IMG/VR virus record: IMGVR_UViG_3300020057_001240
Span: 1-20,922 of that record
Direction: 5' to 3' (one strand)
Origin: a virus
Length of the DNA: 20,922 nucleotides
Shown piece by piece: positions 803 through 18,102 of this stretch (the first letter of the stretch is position 1; every line of letters starts with the position of its first letter). The notes beneath the pieces were generated by a model that did not search any database, was not told the DNA's origin, and saw only the letters and a program-made list of their open reading frames with translations. Made by a program: the position numbers and the translations under genes.

Positions 803-1045
803 CGTTCGCTCGCACTGGGGCATCGAGAACCAACTTCATTGGGTCCTCGACGTTGCGTTTCGAGAGGACGACTGCCGCGTGAGAGCCGGCAATGCCGCCG
901 AGAACTTCGCCGTACTACGTCACGCAGCGCTCAACCTGCTCAAGCACGTCAAAGGCACCAAGGTCGGCATCAAGATTCGTCGGCTACGCGCTGGCTGGGA
1001 CAACGATTTCCTCATGCAAGTTCTCGGTGCATCTTGCTAGCGGAA

Positions 1046-1060
1046 GATGCGATCGCCCTG
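1046..1060. repeat. Putative right inverted repeat of the ISAs1-type IS
   Basis: GATGCGATCGCCCTG lies 5 bases after the transposase stop. Its reverse complement begins CAGGGCGATCGCATC, which resembles ISAs1-family termini as I remember them. The left end is not in the window, so pairing cannot be shown. If correct, the IS ends at 1060 and cassette 1 begins just after it. Confidence 0.5.
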
Positions 1061-1180
1061 ACGGCACGCCCGCCTGTACACCTCGAATCTGAACGCGACG
1101 ACGCGTGCATGAACCGACGCGAAGAAATGGCGTGAGCGCCGCGGCCTGACGTTCAAGGCGAACGACGTGCCCGCCACACC

Positions 1181-1208
1181 TTCAATGGGGGTGCGGATCT
1201 GCTAGACT
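1181..1208 (+). promoter_or_regulatory. Weak candidate promoter for cassette 1
   Basis: TTCAAT (1181-1186), a 16-base spacer and TAGACT (1203-1208), the latter preceded by TG at 1200-1201 as in an extended -10. The -35 is poor (3 of 6). Its position matches a better candidate ahead of cassette 2 (5353-5381), and both are followed by GCGGCC and then the start-codon hairpin. Nothing else is evident in 1061-1245. Confidence 0.3.
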
Positions 1209-1245
1209 CCGCTCGTACCTCGCGGCCTCTCCGTCCTCGTCCTCC

Positions 1246-1286
1246 GTCCAAGCCCCGGCCGCTCCTTCTGGAGCCCTCGCTTGGAC
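1246..1286 (+). promoter_or_regulatory. Leader hairpin enclosing the ribosome site and TTG start of the cassette 1 methyltransferase
   Basis: The outer stem is GTCCAAGC (1246-1253) with GCTTGGAC (1279-1286). The inner stem is GCTCC (1261-1265) with GGAGC (1270-1274) around a TTCT loop. The Shine-Dalgarno GGAG (1270-1273) is in the right arm of the inner stem. The TTG start (1281-1283) is in the right arm of the outer stem, 7 bases later. The same architecture occurs at 5426-5479. Folding should limit initiation; a temperature- or protein-responsive switch is inference. Confidence 0.6.
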
Positions 1287-2612
1287 ATCACCCGCGTCCC
1301 TCTCGACGCCCTTCACGCTGACCCCGCGAACGCCCGTCTACACGGCGACCGCAACCTCGACGCCATCCGCGCGTCGCTCGCGACCTTCGGCCAGGTCGAG
1401 CCGCTGGTCGTTCATCACACAACGAAGCGCGTGATCGGCGGCAACGGTCGCCTGACGGCGATGCGCGCGTTGGGCTGGACGCACGCGAACGTGGTCGAAC
1501 TCGATGTGTCCGAGACGCAGGCGACTGCGCTCGGCATCGCGTTGAACCGGACGGCCGAGCTGGCCGAGTGGGACCTCCCGAGCCTCGGGGCGCTCCTGCA
1601 ATCGCTGCCCGACCTCGACGGCGTCGGCTTCAATCCAGACGAACTCCAAGAGGTGCTCGACTCGCTGCTCGCTGGGCAGGCGATCGGCGTGAACGAGGAC
1701 GACGTGCCGGATCCTCCCGACGAGGCCACGACGCGGACGGGCGACGTGTGGGTGCTCGGGCGGCATCGCTTGCTGTGCGGCGACAGCTCGCTCGCGGCGG
1801 ACGTGGACGTGCTGGTCGCGGGCGCATCGATCCACTTGGTGAACATGGACCCGCCGTACAACGTGAAGGTCGAGCCGCGATCGAACAACGCGATCGCTGC
1901 GGGGCTCTCGTCCTTCCACCACCAGAAGTTCGATCTCGCGCGCCATCCCGAGAAGGCGAAGGCGACGCACGACAAGCTGCGCCCGAAGGATCGACCGCTG
2001 GCGAACGACTTCATCGACGACGCGGAGTTCGATCGCTTGCTCCGCGCGTGGTTCGGCAACGCGTCGCGCGTGTTGTTGCCAGGGCGCGGCTTCTACATCT
2101 GGGGTGGGTACGCGAACCTCGCGAACTACCCGAGCGCGCTGAAGGAGTGCGGTCTCTACTTCAGCCAGACGGTCATCTGGAACAAGCTCCACCCGGTGCT
2201 GACGCGCAAGGACTTCATGGGTGCGTGCGAGCAAGCGTTCTACGGCTGGAAGGAAGGCGCGGCGCACGAGTTCTTCGGCCCGAACAACGCGACCGATCTG
2301 TGGGAGATCAAGAAGCTCCATCACACGAAGTCAGTCCATTTAACCGAAAAACCCGTCGAACTCGCCGCTCGCGCCATCCAGTACTCGTCGCGCCCCGGCG
2401 AGAACGTGCTCGACCTCTTCGGTGGGTCGGGCTCGACGCTCGTCGCGTGCGAGCAGACGGGGCGCAACGCGTACTTGTGCGAACTCGACACGTTGTATTG
2501 CGACGTGATCGTGGATCGCTTCCAAAAGCTGACTGGGCAGATTGCGACGCTCGACGGTCGTTCGTTCGGCGACGTGAAGGAGGAGCGCCGTGGTGAATCA
2601 CCCGCCCGCTGA
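1281..2612 (+). CDS. ParB-like nuclease-domain / DNA methyltransferase fusion (cassette 1)
   Basis: This is a 443-aa two-domain protein. Residues 1 to about 110 are a ParB/Sulfiredoxin-type domain (ANARLHGDRN, FGQVEPLVV, VIGGNGRL). From about 150 it is a DNA methyltransferase with DPPY at 190-193 and the AdoMet-binding DLFGGSGS from residue 378, preceded by TEKP. Catalytic motif before AdoMet motif is the beta-class order, and DPPY suggests adenine-N6 methylation, though cytosine-N4 is possible. Such fusions are common in phages and prophages, where they may protect or mark DNA. The start is TTG with GGAG 7 bases upstream, inside a hairpin. The gene overlaps the next one by 23 bases. The methylase half is nearly identical to the cassette 2 copy. 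No restriction enzyme is adjacent, so it is probably an orphan methylase. The recognition site cannot be inferred. Confidence 0.93.
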   Translation: MDITRVPLDALHADPANARLHGDRNLDAIRASLATFGQVEPLVVHHTTKRVIGGNGRLTAMRALGWTHANVVELDVSETQATALGIALNRTAELAEWDLPSLGALLQSLPDLDGVGFNPDELQEVLDSLLAGQAIGVNEDDVPDPPDEATTRTGDVWVLGRHRLLCGDSSLAADVDVLVAGASIHLVNMDPPYNVKVEPRSNNAIAAGLSSFHHQKFDLARHPEKAKATHDKLRPKDRPLANDFIDDAEFDRLLRAWFGNASRVLLPGRGFYIWGGYANLANYPSALKECGLYFSQTVIWNKLHPVLTRKDFMGACEQAFYGWKEGAAHEFFGPNNATDLWEIKKLHHTKSVHLTEKPVELAARAIQYSSRPGENVLDLFGGSGSTLVACEQTGRNAYLCELDTLYCDVIVDRFQKLTGQIATLDGRSFGDVKEERRGESPAR

Positions 2613-3090
2613 TCGACAAGATCTGTTCCAGTACTACTGCTCCCTCGGCGACACGCGCAGCTACCAGAGGGTCGCGGATCACTACGGAGTTCAGAAGAAC
2701 ACGATCACGCGCATCGCGATCGACTACGAGTGGCTCGCGCGCCTCAAGATGATCGAGGCCGAGGCCCGCCGCGAAGCCGACAAGAAGATCACGGACATGC
2801 GCGCCGAGGCGTACGAGCGACATCTCAAGCTCGCCAAGTTCGTGCAGGGCAAGGCCGTCCAAGGGCTTCAGTCGCACACGTTCGACTCCGCGCGGGATGC
2901 CTCGCGCGCACTCGTCGATGGCGTGAAGCTGGAGCGCACGGTGCTGGGCGAGAGCACCGAAAACCGCACCGTATCCGTCCAGGCCCTCACACGACGCGAA
3001 GTGGAGACGTTCGTGACGGGCTCGTTGTTCCCCGACGGGGATCTCGCCGCCGAGGAAGATCTGACCGATGACCTCGACGAAGCGACCTGA
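2590..3090 (+). CDS. Small-terminase-like HTH protein (cassette 1)
   Basis: This 166-aa protein begins with a helix-turn-helix-like segment (SYQRVADHYGVQKNTITRIA, about residues 22-41). A long charged helical region follows (KMIEAEARREADKKI), then an acidic C-terminus (AAEEDLTDDLDEAT). That layout, and its place directly before a terminase ATPase, fit a phage small terminase subunit, which binds DNA and recruits the large subunit for packaging. A strong purine-rich site, GAAGGAGGAG, lies just upstream. GTG codons at 2590 and 2593 are both possible starts. It overlaps the methyltransferase by 23 bases and the ATPase by 23 bases, implying translational coupling. It is only distantly similar to the equivalent protein of cassette 2. 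The role rests on context and helical pattern. Confidence 0.68.
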   Translation: MVNHPPADRQDLFQYYCSLGDTRSYQRVADHYGVQKNTITRIAIDYEWLARLKMIEAEARREADKKITDMRAEAYERHLKLAKFVQGKAVQGLQSHTFDSARDASRALVDGVKLERTVLGESTENRTVSVQALTRREVETFVTGSLFPDGDLAAEEDLTDDLDEAT

Positions 3091-4003
3091 ACTCGGCTTG
3101 CGCAAGCTCGCGCTGTTCCAGCACCTCGGCTACGTGCCACACGAGACGCAGCTCGTCGTCCACGAGTCACGATCGAAGCGACGCGTGGTTGCGTGCGGTA
3201 CGCGGTGGGGGAAGAGCGTCCTCGCTGCGCACGAAACGATCGCCGAGCTGCTCTATCCGCGCGAACGAGCGATGATCTGGCTCGTCGCGCCGACGTACGA
3301 GCTGACCAAGCGCATCGCGGAGCGGGTGGTCATGACGCTCCAGACCCACCTGCCGCACCGCGTCGTGAAGCTCGACGCGAAGGATCGATCGATCACGATT
3401 GCGAACCTCGGGGGCGGGGAGACGGTGCTGCGCGCGCGGTCCGCCGATCGACCGGTGGGGTTGCTCGGCGATTCGGCGGACGCGCTGATCGTTGACGAGT
3501 CGGCGCAGATCCACGAGCGCGTCTGGACGGAGCACCTCGCGCCTCGACTGATCGACTGCGATGGCTCCGCGCTGCTGCTCAGCACGCCCGATGGTGGCGG
3601 GTGGTTCTACGACGAGTTCAAGCGCGCCAAGACGGACCCGGTCTACGCGGCGTGGTCGTTCCCCACGTCCGCGAACCCGAGGATCGACCAGGAGTTGATC
3701 GAGGCCGAGCGCAAGCGACTTCCGGCGGATGTGTTTCGCGCGCAGTACCTGGCCGAGTTCGTGGGCGTGCCGATCATCCCGTGCGACGTTTGCCACGGGC
3801 CCAAGCGCGGCAACCGTACGCTCGTTCTTTTCGAGGGCCTGGACGACCTTGGCACGTGCCCTGCATGCGAGCGGCCCGTGGATGCCGACGGGGAGACGAT
3901 CGTCCCGCTGAACCGCGACGGCACGGAAGGCGAGCCGCGCATCATCCGGATCATCGGGTCGCCGGACGAACCGCCCGAGATGCCGGGGAATCCTGCTTCC
4001 TGA
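3068..4003 (+). CDS. Terminase-like ATPase without nuclease domain, with four-cysteine tail (cassette 1)
   Basis: This 311-aa protein matches the ATPase half of phage large terminase. Walker A is GTRWGKS at 44-50, Walker B is LIVDES with D143 and E144, and the coupling-type block is LLLSTPDG. It parallels the cassette 2 enzyme up to about residue 230 (VFRAQYLAEF), where that protein enters its RNase H-like nuclease. Here a different tail begins, with CDVC (239-242) and CPAC (264-267) able to bind zinc, then a proline-rich end. It could translocate DNA but should not cut it. It might work with a nuclease elsewhere, compete with the full enzyme, or have another DNA-remodelling role. The ATG start overlaps the previous gene by 23 bases. 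The stop at 4003 is natural, with no sign of a frameshift into a lost nuclease. Confidence 0.83.
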   Translation: MTSTKRPELGLRKLALFQHLGYVPHETQLVVHESRSKRRVVACGTRWGKSVLAAHETIAELLYPRERAMIWLVAPTYELTKRIAERVVMTLQTHLPHRVVKLDAKDRSITIANLGGGETVLRARSADRPVGLLGDSADALIVDESAQIHERVWTEHLAPRLIDCDGSALLLSTPDGGGWFYDEFKRAKTDPVYAAWSFPTSANPRIDQELIEAERKRLPADVFRAQYLAEFVGVPIIPCDVCHGPKRGNRTLVLFEGLDDLGTCPACERPVDADGETIVPLNRDGTEGEPRIIRIIGSPDEPPEMPGNPAS

Positions 4004-4060
4004 GTGGGCCGAGATGAGCCTGCATGGGGGTCCGTCCACGTTCCCCGTCCAAGGTTCCCC

Positions 4061-4930
4061 ATGCGTCTCTCGGAAGCTCTCTGCCAGTACCTCGTCCAAC
4101 TCGAAGCCGATGGACGCAGTCCGCACTCCATCGCGCAGGCGCGTCGCCACGGCCGCTTGATCGTTGCTGCGCTCGCCGACCCACCGGTCGATCGGATCAA
4201 GTCGGAGGACATCGCGCGCGTCTTCGTGTCGCCGACCGTGAAGAACACCTTCGATGGCCGACCACGGCGGGCGTCGAGCGCGAACGCGCTGAGGTCGAGC
4301 GCGAGGTCGCTGTTCGCCTTCCTCGCGAACGCGCGGCTTGCGCCGACGAACCCGGCAAGGCTCCTGCGACGCGCACGAGTTGCGCCGACGCGGCCACGTG
4401 CGATCTCGGAGTCGGACATCGAGGTCCTGCTGCGCGCACTCGACGGGGCGCGTACGCCGGTCGAGCTGCGCGACCGCGCATTGATCCTGACGCTCCTGCG
4501 CGCGGGGACGCGCATCGGCTCCGCGGTGGGCCTCGACGTCGAGGACCTCGACCTGGACGCGGGAGAGGCGCGCTTGCGTCGCCTGAAGAACGGCGGCGAG
4601 GACGTCATCCAATTGATGCCCGACCTCGTCGCCGTGCTGAAGCCGTACGTCGGCGTACGGACCAGCGGGCCGCTCTTCCCGACCGAGGCCGGCGGGAGGC
4701 TGACGACGCGCCAAGCCGCCCGTCGCCTGGCGGAGTGGTGCGACCGGGCGGGCCTCGCGAAGCGCGCCTCGCCCCACCAGTTCCGCCACGCGTTCGCCGA
4801 GCGCGCCTACGAGGCCTGCGGCGACGTGCTGCTCGTCGCGGCGGCGCTGACGCACAAGACGCCGGCCTCGACCATGCGCTACGTGCGGCCTTCGGCGTCG
4901 CGGATCCGGGCGGCGCTCGCTGCCGGGTGA
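4061..4930 (+). CDS. Tyrosine recombinase (XerC/D-like size)
   Basis: This 289-aa site-specific recombinase has an N-terminal core-binding region (LSEALCQYLVQLEADG, SPHSIAQARRHG) and a C-terminal catalytic domain. The catalytic residues are visible: R151 in AGTRIG, H239 and R242 in HQFRHAF, H265 in LTHKT and the nucleophile Y274 in MRYVRP. The size and lack of an arm-binding domain resemble Xer or integron-type enzymes rather than the 439-aa integrase at 14312. I chose ATG 4061 because family similarity begins with MRLSEALCQYL; an in-frame GTG at 4004 would add 19 unsupported residues. Two GTTCCCC heptamers (4040-4046, 4054-4060) abut the start. A strong hairpin and a cluster of the same heptamer follow the gene, so its own sites may flank it. 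Confidence 0.92.
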   Translation: MRLSEALCQYLVQLEADGRSPHSIAQARRHGRLIVAALADPPVDRIKSEDIARVFVSPTVKNTFDGRPRRASSANALRSSARSLFAFLANARLAPTNPARLLRRARVAPTRPRAISESDIEVLLRALDGARTPVELRDRALILTLLRAGTRIGSAVGLDVEDLDLDAGEARLRRLKNGGEDVIQLMPDLVAVLKPYVGVRTSGPLFPTEAGGRLTTRQAARRLAEWCDRAGLAKRASPHQFRHAFAERAYEACGDVLLVAAALTHKTPASTMRYVRPSASRIRAALAAG

Positions 4931-4937
4931 CCTGTCA

Positions 4938-4976
4938 CCGGGGAGCTGGCATTCCGCCTCGAATGCGACTCCCCGG
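4938..4976 (+). terminator. Hairpin just after the recombinase gene
   Basis: The outer stem is CCGGGGAG (4938-4945) with CTCCCCGG (4969-4976). The inner stem is GCATTC (4949-4954) with GAATGC (4961-4966) around a 6-base loop. It starts 7 bases after the stop codon. There is no T-tract, so it may be a weak or factor-assisted terminator, an mRNA-end stabiliser, or a recombination-related structure. Confidence 0.5.
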
Positions 4977-5035
4977 CCCTGACTAGCCCGCTGGCCGATC
5001 CAGCGCCCCATTCTGAAGGGAATCGGACCCTCGAA

Positions 5036-5301
5036 GTTCCCCGCTGGGTCCCCGTTGGCGCGAAGAACCGACCGCCAGAATGGCCGAATGAGCCTCCAAG
5101 TGCCCCAAAACGGTCCCCTTTGGTTCCCCGTAGGTACACCGGAATCGGCCCATTTGAACTGAGCGCAACTGGTGAAAGCGGCCCTGGCGCTATCTAGAAG
5201 GCCGGAAACTGCCATTTTGTCGGGGAACTTTGCTTCGCGAGTGCTGCTTCTTGGGGAACTTCCCTTTGGTGAGTTCCCCATTGGTACACCAGGCGTTCCC
5301 C
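5036..5301. repeat. Cluster of six GTTCCCC heptamers in the intergenic region 4931-5474
   Basis: GTTCCCC occurs at 5036, 5123, 5273 and 5295 on the plus strand and as GGGGAAC at 5222 and 5253. Two more copies lie at 4040 and 4054 beside the recombinase start. At 5123 and 5273 the match extends to an 18-base direct repeat, GTTCCCCGTAGGTACACC versus GTTCCCCATTGGTACACC (16 of 18). Few copies exist elsewhere in the window (I found three, near 3028, 3658 and 10377). I see no gene in this interval. The pattern resembles multiple binding sites for a recombinase or other DNA-binding protein. Confidence 0.6.
5252..5280. repeat. Inverted repeat, candidate recombinase core site
   Basis: TGGGGAACT (5252-5260) and AGTTCCCCA (5272-5280) are perfect 9-bp inverted arms around an 11-base spacer. 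Arms of about this size around a short spacer are typical of tyrosine-recombinase crossover sites, and a tyrosine recombinase is encoded 0.3 kb upstream. Function is inference. Confidence 0.4.
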
Positions 5302-5352
5302 GCGATTAGACGCCTTCAGGAGTCTCTTTTGAGCACTTTGGGTGCCTCGCCA

Positions 5353-5381
5353 TTGAGGTGATGCACGCGACTTGCTATCTC
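5353..5381 (+). promoter_or_regulatory. Candidate promoter for cassette 2
   Basis: TTGAGG (5353-5358), a 17-base spacer and TATCTC (5376-5381), with TG at 5373-5374 as in an extended -10. It lies about 45 bases before the start-codon hairpin and is the best sigma-70-like match in this interval. The -10 hexamer itself matches only 3 of 6. Confidence 0.4.
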
Positions 5382-5425
5382 GGACGAACAACTCAACCCG
5401 CGGCCGAAGCCCTCTAAGTCTTCAT

Positions 5426-5479
5426 TCCAAGTCCGGCCGCTCCCACCGATCCCCAGGGATCACGGAGCTTCGACTTGGA
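5426..5479 (+). promoter_or_regulatory. Leader hairpin enclosing the ribosome site and TTG start of the cassette 2 methyltransferase
   Basis: The outer stem is TCCAAGTC (5426-5433) with GACTTGGA (5472-5479). The middle stem is GCTCC (5439-5443) with GGAGC (5464-5468). An extra apical stem is GATCC (5448-5452) with GGATC (5457-5461). The Shine-Dalgarno GGAG (5464-5467) and the TTG start (5475-5477) are both paired, spaced 7 bases as in cassette 1. Relative to cassette 1, the pair C1253-G1279 becomes T5432-A5473, a compensatory change. Confidence 0.6.
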
Positions 5480-6839
5480 CACTCTCATCATCCGCCGCGT
5501 CGCCCTCGCGGACCTGCACGTGGACCCCGCGAACGCGCGCCTGCACGGCGAGCGCAACCTGGAAGCGATCCAGGCGTCGCTCGCGCGCTTCGGCCAGGCG
5601 GAGCCCCTGGTCGTGCAGCGCTCCAGCGGGCGCGTCGTGGGCGGCAACGGCCGGCTGGTGGCGATGCGCTCCCTGGGCTGGACTCACGCCGATGTCGTTG
5701 AGCTCGATCTCAGCGAGACGCAGGCGACGGCGCTCGGCATCGCACTGAACCGCACGGCCGAGCTGGCCGAATGGGACCTGCCCGCGCTCGGGCGTCTGCT
5801 GGAGAGCCTGGACGCTGAGCACGAACTCGCTGGCGTCGGCTACAGCGAGGACGAGATGCAGGACGTGCTCGACCAGATCCTGGCCGAGTCTCCGATCGAG
5901 GTGAACGAGGACGACGTCCCCGGGCTCCCCGACGCGGCCACGACGCGCACGGGCGACCTGTGGGTGCTGGGCCGTCACCGGCTCCTGTGTGGAGACAGCT
6001 CGATCCCCGCGGATGTCGATCGGCTGCTCGCTGGCGAACCGATCCATCTCGTGAACATGGATCCACCCTACAACGTCAAGGTCGAGCCGCGCTCGAACAA
6101 CGCGATCGCGGCAGGGCTGTCGTCGTTCACGAACACGCACCACCAGGGGCTCGACCTCGCGCGCCATCCCGAGAAGGCGAAGGCGACGCACGACAAGTTG
6201 CGCCCGAAGGATCGCCCGCTCGCGAACGACTTCATCAGTGAGGACGAGTTCAATCGCTTGCTGCGCGCGTGGTTCGGCAACGCGGCGCGCGTGCTGCTCC
6301 CGGGGCGTACGTTCTACATCTGGGGCGGCTACGCGAACCTCGCCAACTACCCGAGCGCGTTGAAGGAGTGCGGCCTGTACTTCAGCCAGACCGTCATCTG
6401 GAACAAGCTCCACCCCGTCCTCACGCGCAAGGACTTCATGGGTGCGTGCGAGCAGGCATTTTATGGTTGGAAGGAAGGCGCCGCGCACGAGTTCTTCGGG
6501 CCGAACAACGCGACGGACCTGTGGGAGATCAAGAAGCTCAACCACACGTACATGGTCCATTTAACGGAGAAACCCGTCGAACTCGCCGCGCGCGCCATCC
6601 AGTACAGCTCGCGACCCGGCGAGAACGTGCTCGATCTCTTCGGTGGCTCGGGCTCGACGCTGATCGCCTGCGAGCAGACCGGGCGCAACGCGTACCTGTG
6701 CGAGCTGGACATGCTCTACAGCGACGTGATCGTCGACCGCTGGCAGCGGCTGACGGGCCAGGTGGCGACCCTTGAGGGCAGCGGCCAAAGCTTCGATGCC
6801 GCGCGCACGCAGCGCGGCGCCGCGGGGGTGACGTCGTGA
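5475..6839 (+). CDS. ParB-like nuclease-domain / DNA methyltransferase fusion (cassette 2)
   Basis: This 454-aa paralogue of the gene at 1281 has the same domain order. The ParB-like N-terminus (residues 1 to about 115) contains VVGGNGRLVAMR. The beta-class methyltransferase has DPPY at 196-199 and DLFGGSGS from residue 387. From the DPPY motif onward the two proteins differ at only a small fraction of positions, while linkers and C-terminal tails differ. Both retain all visible catalytic residues, so both should be active and probably share or nearly share specificity. The start is TTG within the leader hairpin. The GTG of the next gene overlaps the stop by 4 bases. Expected activity is AdoMet-dependent methylation of DNA bases, probably adenine-N6, on the element or its host. 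A role in packaging or replication control is inferred from neighbours only. Confidence 0.93.
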   Translation: MDTLIIRRVALADLHVDPANARLHGERNLEAIQASLARFGQAEPLVVQRSSGRVVGGNGRLVAMRSLGWTHADVVELDLSETQATALGIALNRTAELAEWDLPALGRLLESLDAEHELAGVGYSEDEMQDVLDQILAESPIEVNEDDVPGLPDAATTRTGDLWVLGRHRLLCGDSSIPADVDRLLAGEPIHLVNMDPPYNVKVEPRSNNAIAAGLSSFTNTHHQGLDLARHPEKAKATHDKLRPKDRPLANDFISEDEFNRLLRAWFGNAARVLLPGRTFYIWGGYANLANYPSALKECGLYFSQTVIWNKLHPVLTRKDFMGACEQAFYGWKEGAAHEFFGPNNATDLWEIKKLNHTYMVHLTEKPVELAARAIQYSSRPGENVLDLFGGSGSTLIACEQTGRNAYLCELDMLYSDVIVDRWQRLTGQVATLEGSGQSFDAARTQRGAAGVTS

Positions 6840-7342
6840 GCTCGCGCATCCCGATCGGAGCGTTCGAGTTCTATGTCGGCCTCGGCAACGACCGGTCGTA
6901 CGAGGTTGTCGCCTCGCACTTCCACGTCACCAAGCGCGCCATCACGAAGGCCGCCGCGCGCGAGCGATGGAGCGAGCGCCTGGAGAAGATCGAACGCGAG
7001 GCACAGACGCGCGTCGACGAGAAGCTCGTCGAGAGCATCGAACAGATGCGCCTGCGGCACACGAAGATGCTGCGCGCGATGGCGAGCCGCGCGGTGAAGG
7101 CGTTGCAGGAGTTCCCGCTCACTTCCGGCATGGAGGGGCTCCGCGCCGCGGAGGCCGTGATCAAGCTCGAACGGCTCGTCGCCGGCGAAGTGACAGAGCG
7201 CGGCGCCACCAGCGTCGAGGTGCTGATCAAGGGCGAGTACGAGCAGATCATGCAGCCGGTCCTGGTGGACGCGGACACGGGCGAGGACGAAGACGCGGAC
7301 GATCGCGACGAGGAGGACAGCGATGACGAAGCAGATGCGTAG
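6836..7342 (+). CDS. Small-terminase-like HTH protein (cassette 2)
   Basis: This 168-aa protein has an N-terminal helix-turn-helix-like segment (SYEVVASHFHVTKRAITKAA, about residues 20-39). A charged helical middle follows (EKIEREAQTRVDEKLVESIE), and the tail is very acidic (EDEDADDRDEEDSDDEADA). It holds the same position and layout as the protein at 2590, with clear but low similarity, against near identity of the preceding methyltransferases. By context it is the DNA-recognition small subunit for the downstream large terminase. The GTG start overlaps the methyltransferase stop by 4 bases, and the large-terminase ATG lies 20 bases before its stop. Both suggest translational coupling. Confidence 0.7.
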   Translation: MSSRIPIGAFEFYVGLGNDRSYEVVASHFHVTKRAITKAAARERWSERLEKIEREAQTRVDEKLVESIEQMRLRHTKMLRAMASRAVKALQEFPLTSGMEGLRAAEAVIKLERLVAGEVTERGATSVEVLIKGEYEQIMQPVLVDADTGEDEDADDRDEEDSDDEADA

Positions 7343-8642
7343 GCGGTTCAACAAGCTCGCCCTCTTCGACTACCTCGAGCACAAGCCGCACCCCGGCCAG
7401 CTCGAGGTGCATCTCTCGACTGCACCCAGACGCGTCGTCGCGTGCGGCGTGCGCTGGGGGAAGACGCGCGTCGCCGCGATGGAGGGGCTGGCCGCAGCAC
7501 TCGAGCCGCGCGAGCGCTCCATCGGCTGGGTCGTGGCGCCGACCTACGACCTGGCCGAGCGCACGTTCAACGAGATCGTGTACTTCCTGATGACCAAGAT
7601 GCCGCATCGGTTGATCAGCCTGCGGCAGCAGGATCACGCGCTCGTGATCCGCAACATGAGCGGCGGCGTGTCGGAGATCCGCTGCAAGTCGGCCGACAAC
7701 CCGGTGTCGCTCTTGGGTGAGGGTTTGGATTGGGTCGTGATCGATGAGGCTTCGCGGCTGAAGCCCGGCATCTGGCAGAGCCACATCGCGCAGCGCTTGA
7801 TTGACAAGCACGGCTGGGCGCTTCTGATCTCGACGCCGCGCGGGAAGGGCTGGTTTTTTGACCTGTGGCGACGTGGCCGCGGACCCGATCGCGATCCCGA
7901 CTTCGAGAGCTGGAACCAGCCTTCGATCTCGAACCCCGTCCTCGACCCTGAGTTGATCGAGCGTCAACGCTCTCTACTGCCCGAACGCGTGTTCCGCCAA
8001 GAGTTCGGCGCGGAGTTCCTCGAAGGCTCGGGTGCCGTGTTCCGCTACGTGCGCGAAGCAGCCAAGGGCGAGTTCGTCGAACCGCGTGCTGGCGAGCAGT
8101 ACTTCGGCGGCCTCGATCTCGCCAAGGTCGAGGACTACACCGTGCTGACGATCATGAACCGCCGCTACGAGGTCGTTTTCGTCGATCGTTTTCATCGTCT
8201 GGATTGGGGCCTTCAAGTCAACAGGATCCGAGCCGCGCTCGAGCGCTACGGGCGAGCGAGCATCCTGGTGGACTCGACGGGAGCGGGCGAGCCGGTCTAT
8301 GAGTCGCTGTGTCGCGCGGGAGTGAATGCGGAGCCGTACGCGTTCACCTCGAAGTCGAAGGCTGCGCTGATCGATCATCTGTCGATCCAGTTCGAGCGCC
8401 AGCTCATCACATTGCCGCGCGTGGAGGTGTGTCCCGCGTTGGTCGATGAACTGGAGGCCTTCGAATACACCGTGACCGATCTCGGTGCCGTGCGCACGTC
8501 AGCGCCGTCGGGGTTTCACGACGACATGGTGGTGTCGCTTGCGCTCGCTGCGTGGCGCGTGCGCTCGGCACCGGCACCGATCGAGTTCGCCTCGTTCAAC
8601 AACTGGGGTGCGGCGCAGCGCTACCTCGCGAGGTACGGGTAG
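7323..8642 (+). CDS. Phage-type terminase large subunit, ATPase plus nuclease (cassette 2)
   Basis: This 439-aa complete large terminase is the motor that pumps phage DNA into capsids and cuts it. Walker A is GVRWGKT at 42-48. Walker B is VVIDEA with D141 and E142, followed by LLISTPRGKGW. The C-terminal RNase H-like nuclease shows acidic residues D265 (GGLDLAK), D317 (ILVDSTGAG) and D400/D401 (GFHDDMVVSL). Length is normal for a compact terminase. Only the ATPase half corresponds to the cassette 1 protein. No portal, protease or capsid gene follows; the next feature is a strong terminator and then replication genes. The packaging partner would therefore be outside the window or supplied by a helper phage (inference). 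Confidence 0.92.
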   Translation: MTKQMRRRFNKLALFDYLEHKPHPGQLEVHLSTAPRRVVACGVRWGKTRVAAMEGLAAALEPRERSIGWVVAPTYDLAERTFNEIVYFLMTKMPHRLISLRQQDHALVIRNMSGGVSEIRCKSADNPVSLLGEGLDWVVIDEASRLKPGIWQSHIAQRLIDKHGWALLISTPRGKGWFFDLWRRGRGPDRDPDFESWNQPSISNPVLDPELIERQRSLLPERVFRQEFGAEFLEGSGAVFRYVREAAKGEFVEPRAGEQYFGGLDLAKVEDYTVLTIMNRRYEVVFVDRFHRLDWGLQVNRIRAALERYGRASILVDSTGAGEPVYESLCRAGVNAEPYAFTSKSKAALIDHLSIQFERQLITLPRVEVCPALVDELEAFEYTVTDLGAVRTSAPSGFHDDMVVSLALAAWRVRSAPAPIEFASFNNWGAAQRYLARYG

Positions 8643-16012: not shown

Positions 16013-16545
16013 GATGCGTGGGAGGGCGCCGATGGCGTCGGCGACTTCGAACAACTGTGAGTCGGTCCGCGCAGGAAGCACGCCGTCTCGGAGCCTCGAT
16101 CCGGTGAGACTCGGACGGCGCATCAGTTGCGACGAAACACGATGCGTAGGGAAGGACCGCCGAGAAACCACCTAACGAGCATCCGGGGCGCTGGCTGATG
16201 GGCCGCACAAGTTCGGAGTTGAACGGGAAGAGGATGAACAGTACACCCCGCGGGTCCCGCCCGTCCCAACCGACGCGCCGTGCCGAGGATCCGCGTCCTC
16301 TGCCTTGCGCGCATCCTCGACGCTCCCTATGGCCGCTCCCTCCGGCCCCCCCCGCGAGTGCCCGCTCGGCGGGAGTCAACGACGCGATTTCGTACCAACC
16401 CAGGCCCGAGGTCTGCCGAGCGTTGCGGTGCAAAGTCCCATCGCGCATGCCAGCGCAAGGGATGCATCGATCCGGATCGCGCTTGCGAGTCGCTGCGGTG
16501 CCCCTATCCGTTCGTCGCCGCGCATCCGGAACGGGGGTGGAAGGG
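16013..16545 (+). other. Long leader region before the deaminase gene
   Basis: This is 533 bases without a convincing gene. It contains short stems (GCCGA/TCGGC near 16030; GCCGTC/GACGGC at about 16082-16119) and a run of eight C at 16346-16353. The deaminase frame is open back to 16198, but that extension is low-complexity and outside the family's usual start. In the Vibrio AvcID system a small antitoxin RNA is encoded just upstream of the deaminase, so this is the place to look for one. I cannot identify an AvcI-like RNA by eye. Confidence 0.4.
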
Positions 16546-18102
16546 ATGCGTGACGAGCAAGCATCGACGGCGCCTGCCTCCGCGGCGAATGTTGAAAGTC
16601 CGGCAGCGAAGGTCGCGCATCTTCCGGCTGCTGGCAGGCCGGCCGTTGCGGCCATCGAGCCCATTCGGTCAGAGCTGGTCGTGGCGCTCGTGGGTCCGGT
16701 GGGGGCTGACCTCCAAGGTGTAGCCCGTCAGATGGCGGACAATCTCGGGTGCTACGGATATCGGCTCGTCGATGTGCACCTGAGCGGCCCTATCTCGAAA
16801 CTGGATCGGGAGCAGACCGGCTTTGACATTCCCTCCAAGCCCGAATTCCAGCGTATCATGCGCTTGATGGATGCCGGCAACTGGGTGCGCGAGACGGCTG
16901 AGCGTGCGGACATACTTGCGCTGTGGGCAGCCTCTCACATCCACAGCTTACGGCCTGATCATGCGCCGACACCGAAGACCCTGTATCTAATTCGTTCACT
17001 AAAACACGAAGCCGAAGTAAAGGCACTACGCCGAATCTACGGACCTGCATTTTTCTTAGTCGGGGTACATGCTTCAGAAGACCGCCGCCGTCGCACGCTG
17101 CTGCACCGTGGGTTAACGGTCAACGAAGCCGACGGATTGATTGAGCGAGATGCTGGCGAGAAGAACAAGTATGGCCAACATACCCGCGAGGCCTTCGGGA
17201 TGGCCGATGTTTTCATTTCCCAGAGCAATTCGGCGGTGCAGATTGACCGTTTCCTGCGCCTAATATTCGGTGATTTTCGCGTAACGCCTACTTTGGATGA
17301 ACACGCCATGTTTATGGCATGCGCCTCCTCTGTTAGATCCGCGGACCTCTCTCGGCAAGTCGGAGCAGTTGTTTGGCATCCCCATGCTGGAGTAGTTGGT
17401 GCGGGTGCCAATGACGTACCACGAGCGCACGGAGGATCCTACTGGCCGGGCAATGCCGACCGCCGAGATTATGTCCTAGGTCACGACGCGAACGAGCGCC
17501 ATCGGAGAGACATTGCGTCCGATATCGCGAAGCGCGTCGTTGCTGCGCTCGCGCTGGGCGATTCCGACGCAACTCAGAAGATAGAGGTCGCCTGCCAATC
17601 ATCGCGTCTGTTCGAAATTACGGAGTTCGGCCGCGCGGTTCATGCCGAAATGGACGCATTGCTCTCTTGTGCACGAGCAGGAGTATCAACACAAGGCTGC
17701 GTCCTATTTTCGACCACCTTTCCATGTCATAACTGCGCGAAGCATGTAGTGTCTGCCGGCATTTCGCGAGTGGTTTATATAGAGCCTTATCCAAAGAGCC
17801 AAGCGGTCGATCTTCACGGTGACGCGATTCAATTGGATGAGGACGGCCGTGGCTCTCGAATTGCCGAGCATGTGCTGTTTCAGCCATTCGAGGGAGTTGG
17901 CCCTCGACGTTATTATGATCTATTTTCTCTGAAGTTCGGAAACGGCAACGAGCTAAGGCGTAAAGGTGAGGATGGTTCACTTGAGCTGTGGTCACCAAGT
18001 TCTGCATCCCCCAGAGTCCCCTTGATCCCCACAATCTACATTGAGAGAGAGTTGGAGGCGGCTGTCGCCTCAGCCGGATTGTGGGAGACGTCATCCACAT
18101 GA
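16546..18102 (+). CDS. Anti-phage dCTP/dCMP deaminase (AvcD/DCD type)
   Basis: This 518-aa defence enzyme depletes deoxycytidine nucleotides during phage infection. The N-terminal P-loop-like kinase-type domain (about 43-230) has LVGPVGADL (G50, G53) in place of a standard GKS loop, and YLIRSLKHEAEVKALRRIYG with FFLVGVHA. The C-terminal deaminase domain (about 255-430) has DEHAMFMACASSVRSADLSR, zinc ligand H366 with catalytic E368 in HAEMDA, and C394 and C397 in PCHNC. I chose ATG 16546 because family similarity begins near residue 43. GGGGGTGGAAGGG precedes it at short spacing. The next gene overlaps by 4 bases. From about 16950 the base composition is clearly less GC-rich than its neighbours, with codons such as CTA, ATA and AAA, suggesting recent acquisition. 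All active-site residues are present. Confidence 0.93.
   Translation: MRDEQASTAPASAANVESPAAKVAHLPAAGRPAVAAIEPIRSELVVALVGPVGADLQGVARQMADNLGCYGYRLVDVHLSGPISKLDREQTGFDIPSKPEFQRIMRLMDAGNWVRETAERADILALWAASHIHSLRPDHAPTPKTLYLIRSLKHEAEVKALRRIYGPAFFLVGVHASEDRRRRTLLHRGLTVNEADGLIERDAGEKNKYGQHTREAFGMADVFISQSNSAVQIDRFLRLIFGDFRVTPTLDEHAMFMACASSVRSADLSRQVGAVVWHPHAGVVGAGANDVPRAHGGSYWPGNADRRDYVLGHDANERHRRDIASDIAKRVVAALALGDSDATQKIEVACQSSRLFEITEFGRAVHAEMDALLSCARAGVSTQGCVLFSTTFPCHNCAKHVVSAGISRVVYIEPYPKSQAVDLHGDAIQLDEDGRGSRIAEHVLFQPFEGVGPRRYYDLFSLKFGNGNELRRKGEDGSLELWSPSSASPRVPLIPTIYIERELEAAVASAGLWETSST

Follow-up and report, generated by a model that had tools for sequence, protein, structure and literature searches.

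Background

RNA thermometers such as ROSE and fourU hold the Shine-Dalgarno (SD) sequence within a hairpin. In phage T4, start-hiding hairpins of the gene e and I-TevI type carry a late promoter within the 5' strand of the hairpin, from which an unlocked mRNA is made (PMC3014915), and gp43 represses its own translation through an RNA operator on its own leader (PMC3014915). The mRNA of the H. pylori type I toxin aapA3 is controlled by SD-sequestering metastable hairpins together with 3' processing and an antisense RNA (PMC6733600). Here we analyse a virus record of 20,922 bases (IMG/VR IMGVR_UViG_3300020057_001240; the whole stretch is called the window below), in which each of two genes for a ParB-like plus N6/N4 DNA methyltransferase (MTase) begins in a hairpin, the lock, that covers both the SD and the start codon. 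Judging from the sequence, we consider it likely that this hairpin is a structured 5' leader that keeps MTase translation off by default in operons of MTase, small terminase (TerS) and large terminase (TerL) genes, and that a trans-acting factor opens it.

Like the T4 start-hiding hairpins, the lock would be a phage mRNA hairpin that hides the SD and/or start and delays expression; here, however, a promoter-like box lies upstream of the whole lock, and the genes and hosts are different. The gp43 operator is also a leader hairpin near the start of a DNA-acting enzyme, but in the window the start codon itself is in the stem and a protein partner is only hypothetical. With aapA3 the lock shares anti-SD arms that would hold a potentially harmful product untranslated until the mRNA changes, whereas it is a single, very stable local hairpin and covers the start codon too. 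Start-hiding hairpins are thus already known; what appears to be new is the gene context, the host range, the promoter-proximal full lock and the covariation of the start codon. Paper searches on methyltransferase autoregulation and on ParB-methyltransferase prophages yielded nothing, no match was seen in the papers searched, and to our knowledge few regulatory RNAs have been described from Planctomycetota or their phages.

Lock hairpins of the two cassettes

The window contains two similar cassettes, each encoding an MTase, a TerS and a TerL; all features given below are on the + strand. In hairpin 1 (1246–1286), the outer stem is formed by GTCCAAGC (1246–1253) and GCTTGGAC (1279–1286) and the inner stem by GCTCC (1261–1265) and GGAGC (1270–1274). 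The SD, GGAG at 1270–1273, is within the inner stem, and the TTG start codon of MTase 1 (1281–1283), which is the sole ATG/GTG/TTG near the projected start in the frame open from 1206, is within the outer stem. Hairpin 2 (5426–5479) has an outer stem of TCCAAGTC (5426–5433) and GACTTGGA (5472–5479), the same inner stem (GCTCC at 5439–5443, GGAGC at 5464–5468) and an additional apical stem of GATCC (5448–5452) and GGATC (5457–5461), with GGAG at 5464–5467 in the inner stem and the TTG of MTase 2 (5475–5477) in the outer one. The spacer from GGAG to TTG is 7 nt in both cassettes. An earlier sequence-only reading had described this arrangement, including the apical stem of cassette 2, and its coordinates were confirmed. 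It had also noted that the outer-stem pair C1253–G1279 of cassette 1 is replaced by T5432–A5473 in cassette 2; the swap is real, though the pair G1246–C1286 has become a T5425/C5480 mismatch in cassette 2, so that the net change is one compensatory pair and one lost. A single compensatory pair between two paralogues is weak evidence, and it is the relatives that decide. DNA similarity between the cassettes begins at the hairpin, and the sequences upstream are unrelated except for short scraps, in agreement with the divergence previously reported.

The predicted folds have energies of -23.5 kcal/mol (z -3.86) for hairpin 1 and -26.5 kcal/mol (z -3.55) for hairpin 2, with 1 and 0 of 200 shuffles, respectively, being equally stable; these values should be read with caution, as the fold windows were picked after the fact. 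In the window and in relatives, the predicted folds place the SD and/or start in a stable local helix, as in a cis-acting leader hairpin that inhibits translation. An SD-sequestering hairpin has the right general shape for an RNA thermometer, which the sequence-only reading had offered as one mode of control. This is disfavoured, and to us barely credible: the stems are long and GC-rich with few mismatches, the SD and start are predicted to be more than 95% paired up to 75°C and, unlike ROSE and fourU, the fold appears far too stable to melt in the biological range.

Conservation and covariation in relatives

Relatives were examined in a class set of 154 genomes of one Planctomycetota class, where the lock is frequent before ParB-MTase genes, as it is in the nearest phage contigs. 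In G089, G072 and G003 (Planctomycetota 'new MAG-29'), the pattern GTCCAAG...GGAG...CTTGGAC precedes MTases up to 76% identical to those of the window, and in G050 two near-identical hairpins precede broken MTase remnants. For a hairpin-independent search of the class, a distant MTase from G150, 33–41% identical to the window MTases, was used as the query. It retrieved genes in 29 genomes, and many of their leaders carry the lock with altered yet matching arms (TTCCAAGCC/GGCTTGGAA, ATCCAAGC/GCTTGGAT and CTCCAAGGC/GCTTTGGAG). Relatives found by protein similarity have outer stems of GTCC/GGAC, TTCC/GGAA (L278), ATCC/GGAT (L287) and CTCC/GGAG (L290). The sequence-only reading had proposed that homologues should keep the paired arms with covariation. 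This was borne out for many relatives within the class, but distant homologues (about 35–62% identical, from phages, Phycisphaerae, Myxococcota and others) mostly have ordinary SD-ATG starts without the lock.

The start codon and its partner change together, occurring as TTG/CAA, ATG/CAU (L003, L288 and L291) and GTG/CAC (L285 and L355). The first base of the start codon (T, A or G) stands opposite A, U or C and is paired in 19 of 20 distinct rows, with a covariation score of 0.868 compared with 0.168 for shuffled rows, a value reached by none of 500 shuffles. Over the nine pairs of the outer stem the score is 0.319 (0.125 shuffled), which again none of 500 shuffles reached and which exceeds all slid-register controls. 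The inner stems vary in sequence and keep their pairing, and the apical stems also vary yet pair (GATCC/GGATC, GCGCC/GGCGC, GCGTCTC/GAGGCGC and TCGATC/GATCGA). Pairing is therefore kept by compensatory change in homologues, as in a cis-acting leader hairpin that inhibits translation, and covariation that involves the start codon itself points with unusual directness to initiation as the target. The proposal that translation of the MTase start is under selected control is thus supported, at the sequence level, by a lock kept with compensatory changes that extend to the start codon.

The 35 class leaders, including the two of the window, were also compared with 149 other leaders, with starts picked by SD and not by structure. 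The energy for opening the SD-to-start region was compared, leader by leader, with that obtained after shuffling the upstream part of the same leader, and the mean z was 1.49 in the class and -0.15 outside it (p 2.5e-8). A helix without mismatches that crosses the start codon and has 7 bp or more was present in 11 of the 35 class leaders and in 3 of the 149 others (p 7e-7), one of the 3 being L003, itself a member but from an unknown host. TCCAAG occurs in 22/35 class leaders and 2/149 others.

Several points weigh against this interpretation. The opening costs of the SD-start region in the window, 16.2 and 13.5 kcal/mol, are not extreme beside the 10.8 ± 3.6 at random positions of this GC-rich record (95th percentile 17.0), and opening energy by itself is not decisive in GC-rich DNA. 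The fold z of some individual leaders is near that of shuffles (-0.26 for the G150 C5a copy, -0.65 for L355, -0.42 for L290 and 0.00 for L197), a sizeable share of class leaders have no start-spanning lock by these measures, and leader GC content is unequal (64% in the class and 56% outside it). The outer-stem rows were registered by hand, L285, L288 and L291 were included for their pairing, and L355 entered the set through a hairpin model. Given this selection of rows, the covariation is strong evidence but not formal proof.

It might also be argued that the leader is an inherited leftover, copied along with the gene and having no regulatory role, since these are multicopy, often degenerate prophage elements and hairpins are kept before broken MTases in G050. 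We find this highly improbable, as compensatory changes are seen across leaders of enzymes only 33–41% identical.

Other identities were considered for the hairpins. The G050 copies were not accepted as a dispersed element lying downstream of genes, since the copy on C46 leads a broken MTase, recognised by tblastn through residues 1–26 of the enzyme, and that on C7 ends in an identical MDT start followed by a junction. An integron attC site was rejected because its R-box core would be AAC/GTT, while the outer arms here are AAG/CTT (by eye) and always precede starts.

The genomes G003, G007, G137 and G150 have several copies of the MTase each, and some copies are broken, which suggests that related prophages or satellites have invaded repeatedly. 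L003, in which an ATG at 994 carries the lock hairpin, has a 17-nt sequence including the anti-start arm, CTGAGTCCATTCTGAGC, twice at 895–960, and several other leaders contain two or three copies of TCCAAG; the repeated anti-start arms are possibly alternative arms or binding sites.

Specificity and host range

Two covariance models were built, R1 for the window type and R2 for the G150 type. Across the 154 class genomes, R1 recovers MTase leaders and R2 gives 19 matches at E up to 3e-5. Of these, 16 stand in front of the N-terminus of a ParB-MTase, which in several cases is a fragment. Of the remaining three, one (G160) is followed by a degenerate start of similar type, one is at the end of a contig (G137 C69), and the third (L357 1628–1690, G145) lies before a DUF5681 gene that begins with ATG and is divergent from an MTase. 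In 392 phylum-wide genomes, R1 matched only G003, G050 and G072, and R2 matched G139, of the same class, and a site in G185 that was dismissed as a chance match because it has no MTase nearby and falls inside an unrelated coding region of some length. When viral contigs were scanned for exact patterns, zero and ten matches were obtained, with the MTase in none of the ten, and Rfam gave no relevant match at gathering score for window positions 1000–6000 and six relatives. By these searches, the element is all but limited to leaders of ParB-MTase genes, either in one Planctomycetota class or in related phage contigs.

This near-confinement to one gene family is what would be expected if the ParB-MTase, or another product of the operon, bound the hairpin as an RNA operator and stabilised its closed state, as in the autoregulation of T4 gp43. 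The anti-start arm is also unusually uniform, and UCCAAG occurs at least twice in 10 of the 35 leaders. However, the uniformity mostly reflects the constraint on the start region that the arm pairs with, and the arm follows changes of the start codon; the same type of leader precedes the DUF5681 gene, so that control may not be strictly self-directed; and the hairpin is predicted to be closed without any protein. Autoregulation of this kind is therefore considered unlikely.

Leader layout and proposed mechanism

Of 31 hairpin leaders scanned for -10-like hexamers (TANNNT with at least 4 of 6 matches), 25 have one upstream of the arm, against a shuffled fraction of 0.15. In the window, TAGACT at 1203–1208, with TGC just before it, lies 37 nt upstream of hairpin 1, and in most of the G150-like group the box is 18–19 nt from the arm. 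Since these boxes are upstream of the 5' arm, an mRNA from them would carry the whole lock. This speaks against a guard against read-through or early transcripts of the T4 gene e and I-TevI type, in which the lock acts on long transcripts while short, active mRNAs start from a promoter inside the 5' strand. The T4 precedents (PMC3014915) and the prophage context speak for such a guard, but a usual promoter is not evident within the arm, although one of a phage-specific kind may be present. We regard the guard as a doubtful explanation, with perhaps a slim chance of being correct. Relief by a ribosome, suggested by the sequence-only reading, looks unlikely, if it is to come from translation upstream, for cassette 1 and the G150 copies, in which the stretch from box to hairpin mostly lacks a usual start codon.

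The arms could also be half-sites of a DNA operator for a DNA-binding protein, e.g. the ParB-like domain, as they are perfect inverted repeats and the arm recurs as additional direct repeats in some leaders (in L003, GAGTCCAT is present twice upstream and once inverted). However, the distance between arm centres, mostly 31–50 nt, shows no helical phasing, the inner and apical stems change sequence and stay paired, and the 3' arm covers the start codon irrespective of whether this is TTG, ATG or GTG. Because the arms are unphased and differing apical stems stay paired, RNA is favoured, and a DNA operator seems improbable.

We therefore return to a leader acting as RNA to keep translation off. 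Transcription from a putative promoter directly 5' of the lock would give an mRNA with a 5' part that folds immediately. The anti-start arm, typically UCCAAG, would pair with the first two codons, the anti-SD arm CUCC (CACCUCC in one subfamily) would pair with the SD, and the variable apical stem would close the loop. As the MTase, TerS and TerL genes overlap end-to-start in the window, expression of the packaging genes would probably also be lowered through translational coupling. Because pairing is predicted to exceed 95% up to 75°C, an opener would be needed, for which a phage or host protein, an RNA or a processing nuclease is a candidate. Folding in the cell, repression, terminase coupling and factor-driven opening are steps that we infer. 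More tentatively, the locks may form a new regulatory RNA family of promoter-proximal, start-locking leaders that co-regulate methylation and packaging genes in Planctomycetota prophages, with a dedicated phage or host factor reading the repeated UCCAAG arms and joint release on induction; this is a possibility to which we give limited credence. If true, DNA modification and packaging would be released together on induction. The element could be used directly as a reporter in the search for the factor by which a phage DNA methyltransferase, and perhaps its packaging motor as well, is freed from the lock.

In two G150 copies (L191 6960–7100 and L193 3126–3260), the locked TTG is the first codon of a short upstream frame, MDTA...PEATR, which ends in a TGA that overlaps the ATG of the MTase (cgATGAtc), suggesting, from the sequence, control by coupling.

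Other features of the window

MTase 1 (1281–2612; PF01555, phrog_498, phrog_620) overlaps TerS 1 (2590–3090), which in turn overlaps TerL 1 (3068–4003). Cassette 2 consists of MTase 2 (5475–6839), TerS 2 (6836–7342) and TerL 2 (7323–8642). The MTases of the two cassettes are 82% identical, the TerS proteins 37%, and the TerL proteins 46% over their shared part. The order hairpin, MTase, TerS and often TerL is found in many relatives. TerL 2 has both the ATPase and the nuclease parts, and TerL 1 has the ATPase part only, lacking the RNase H-like nuclease part and ending in a cysteine-rich, zinc-ribbon-like tail (CDVCHGP...C..C). Since a G089 relative (L136 12544–13524) has a TerL shortened likewise with a similar tail, this form is not a random truncation.

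A tyrosine recombinase gene (XerC-like, 4061–4930) lies between the cassettes. Its ATG (4061) is also in a strong predicted hairpin (4021–4066, GCATGGGG/CCCCATGC; fold z -2.34, opening energy 17.4 kcal/mol), which by this modelling gives the record a locked start of a second kind. In the interval between recombinase and MTase (5020–5300), and at L141 9040–9260, repeated GTTCCCC...GGTACACC / GGTTCCCCTTTGGTTCACC words were seen by eye upstream of the MTase; these are possibly recombinase or replication sites. The protein encoded at 16198–18102 passes the NCBIfam threshold for an anti-phage dCTP deaminase (NF041025) and, from this match, is likely to be a defence gene on the element. Directly 5' of cassette 1, positions 1–1040 encode a transposase with a DDE_Tnp_1 domain that is split over two frames.
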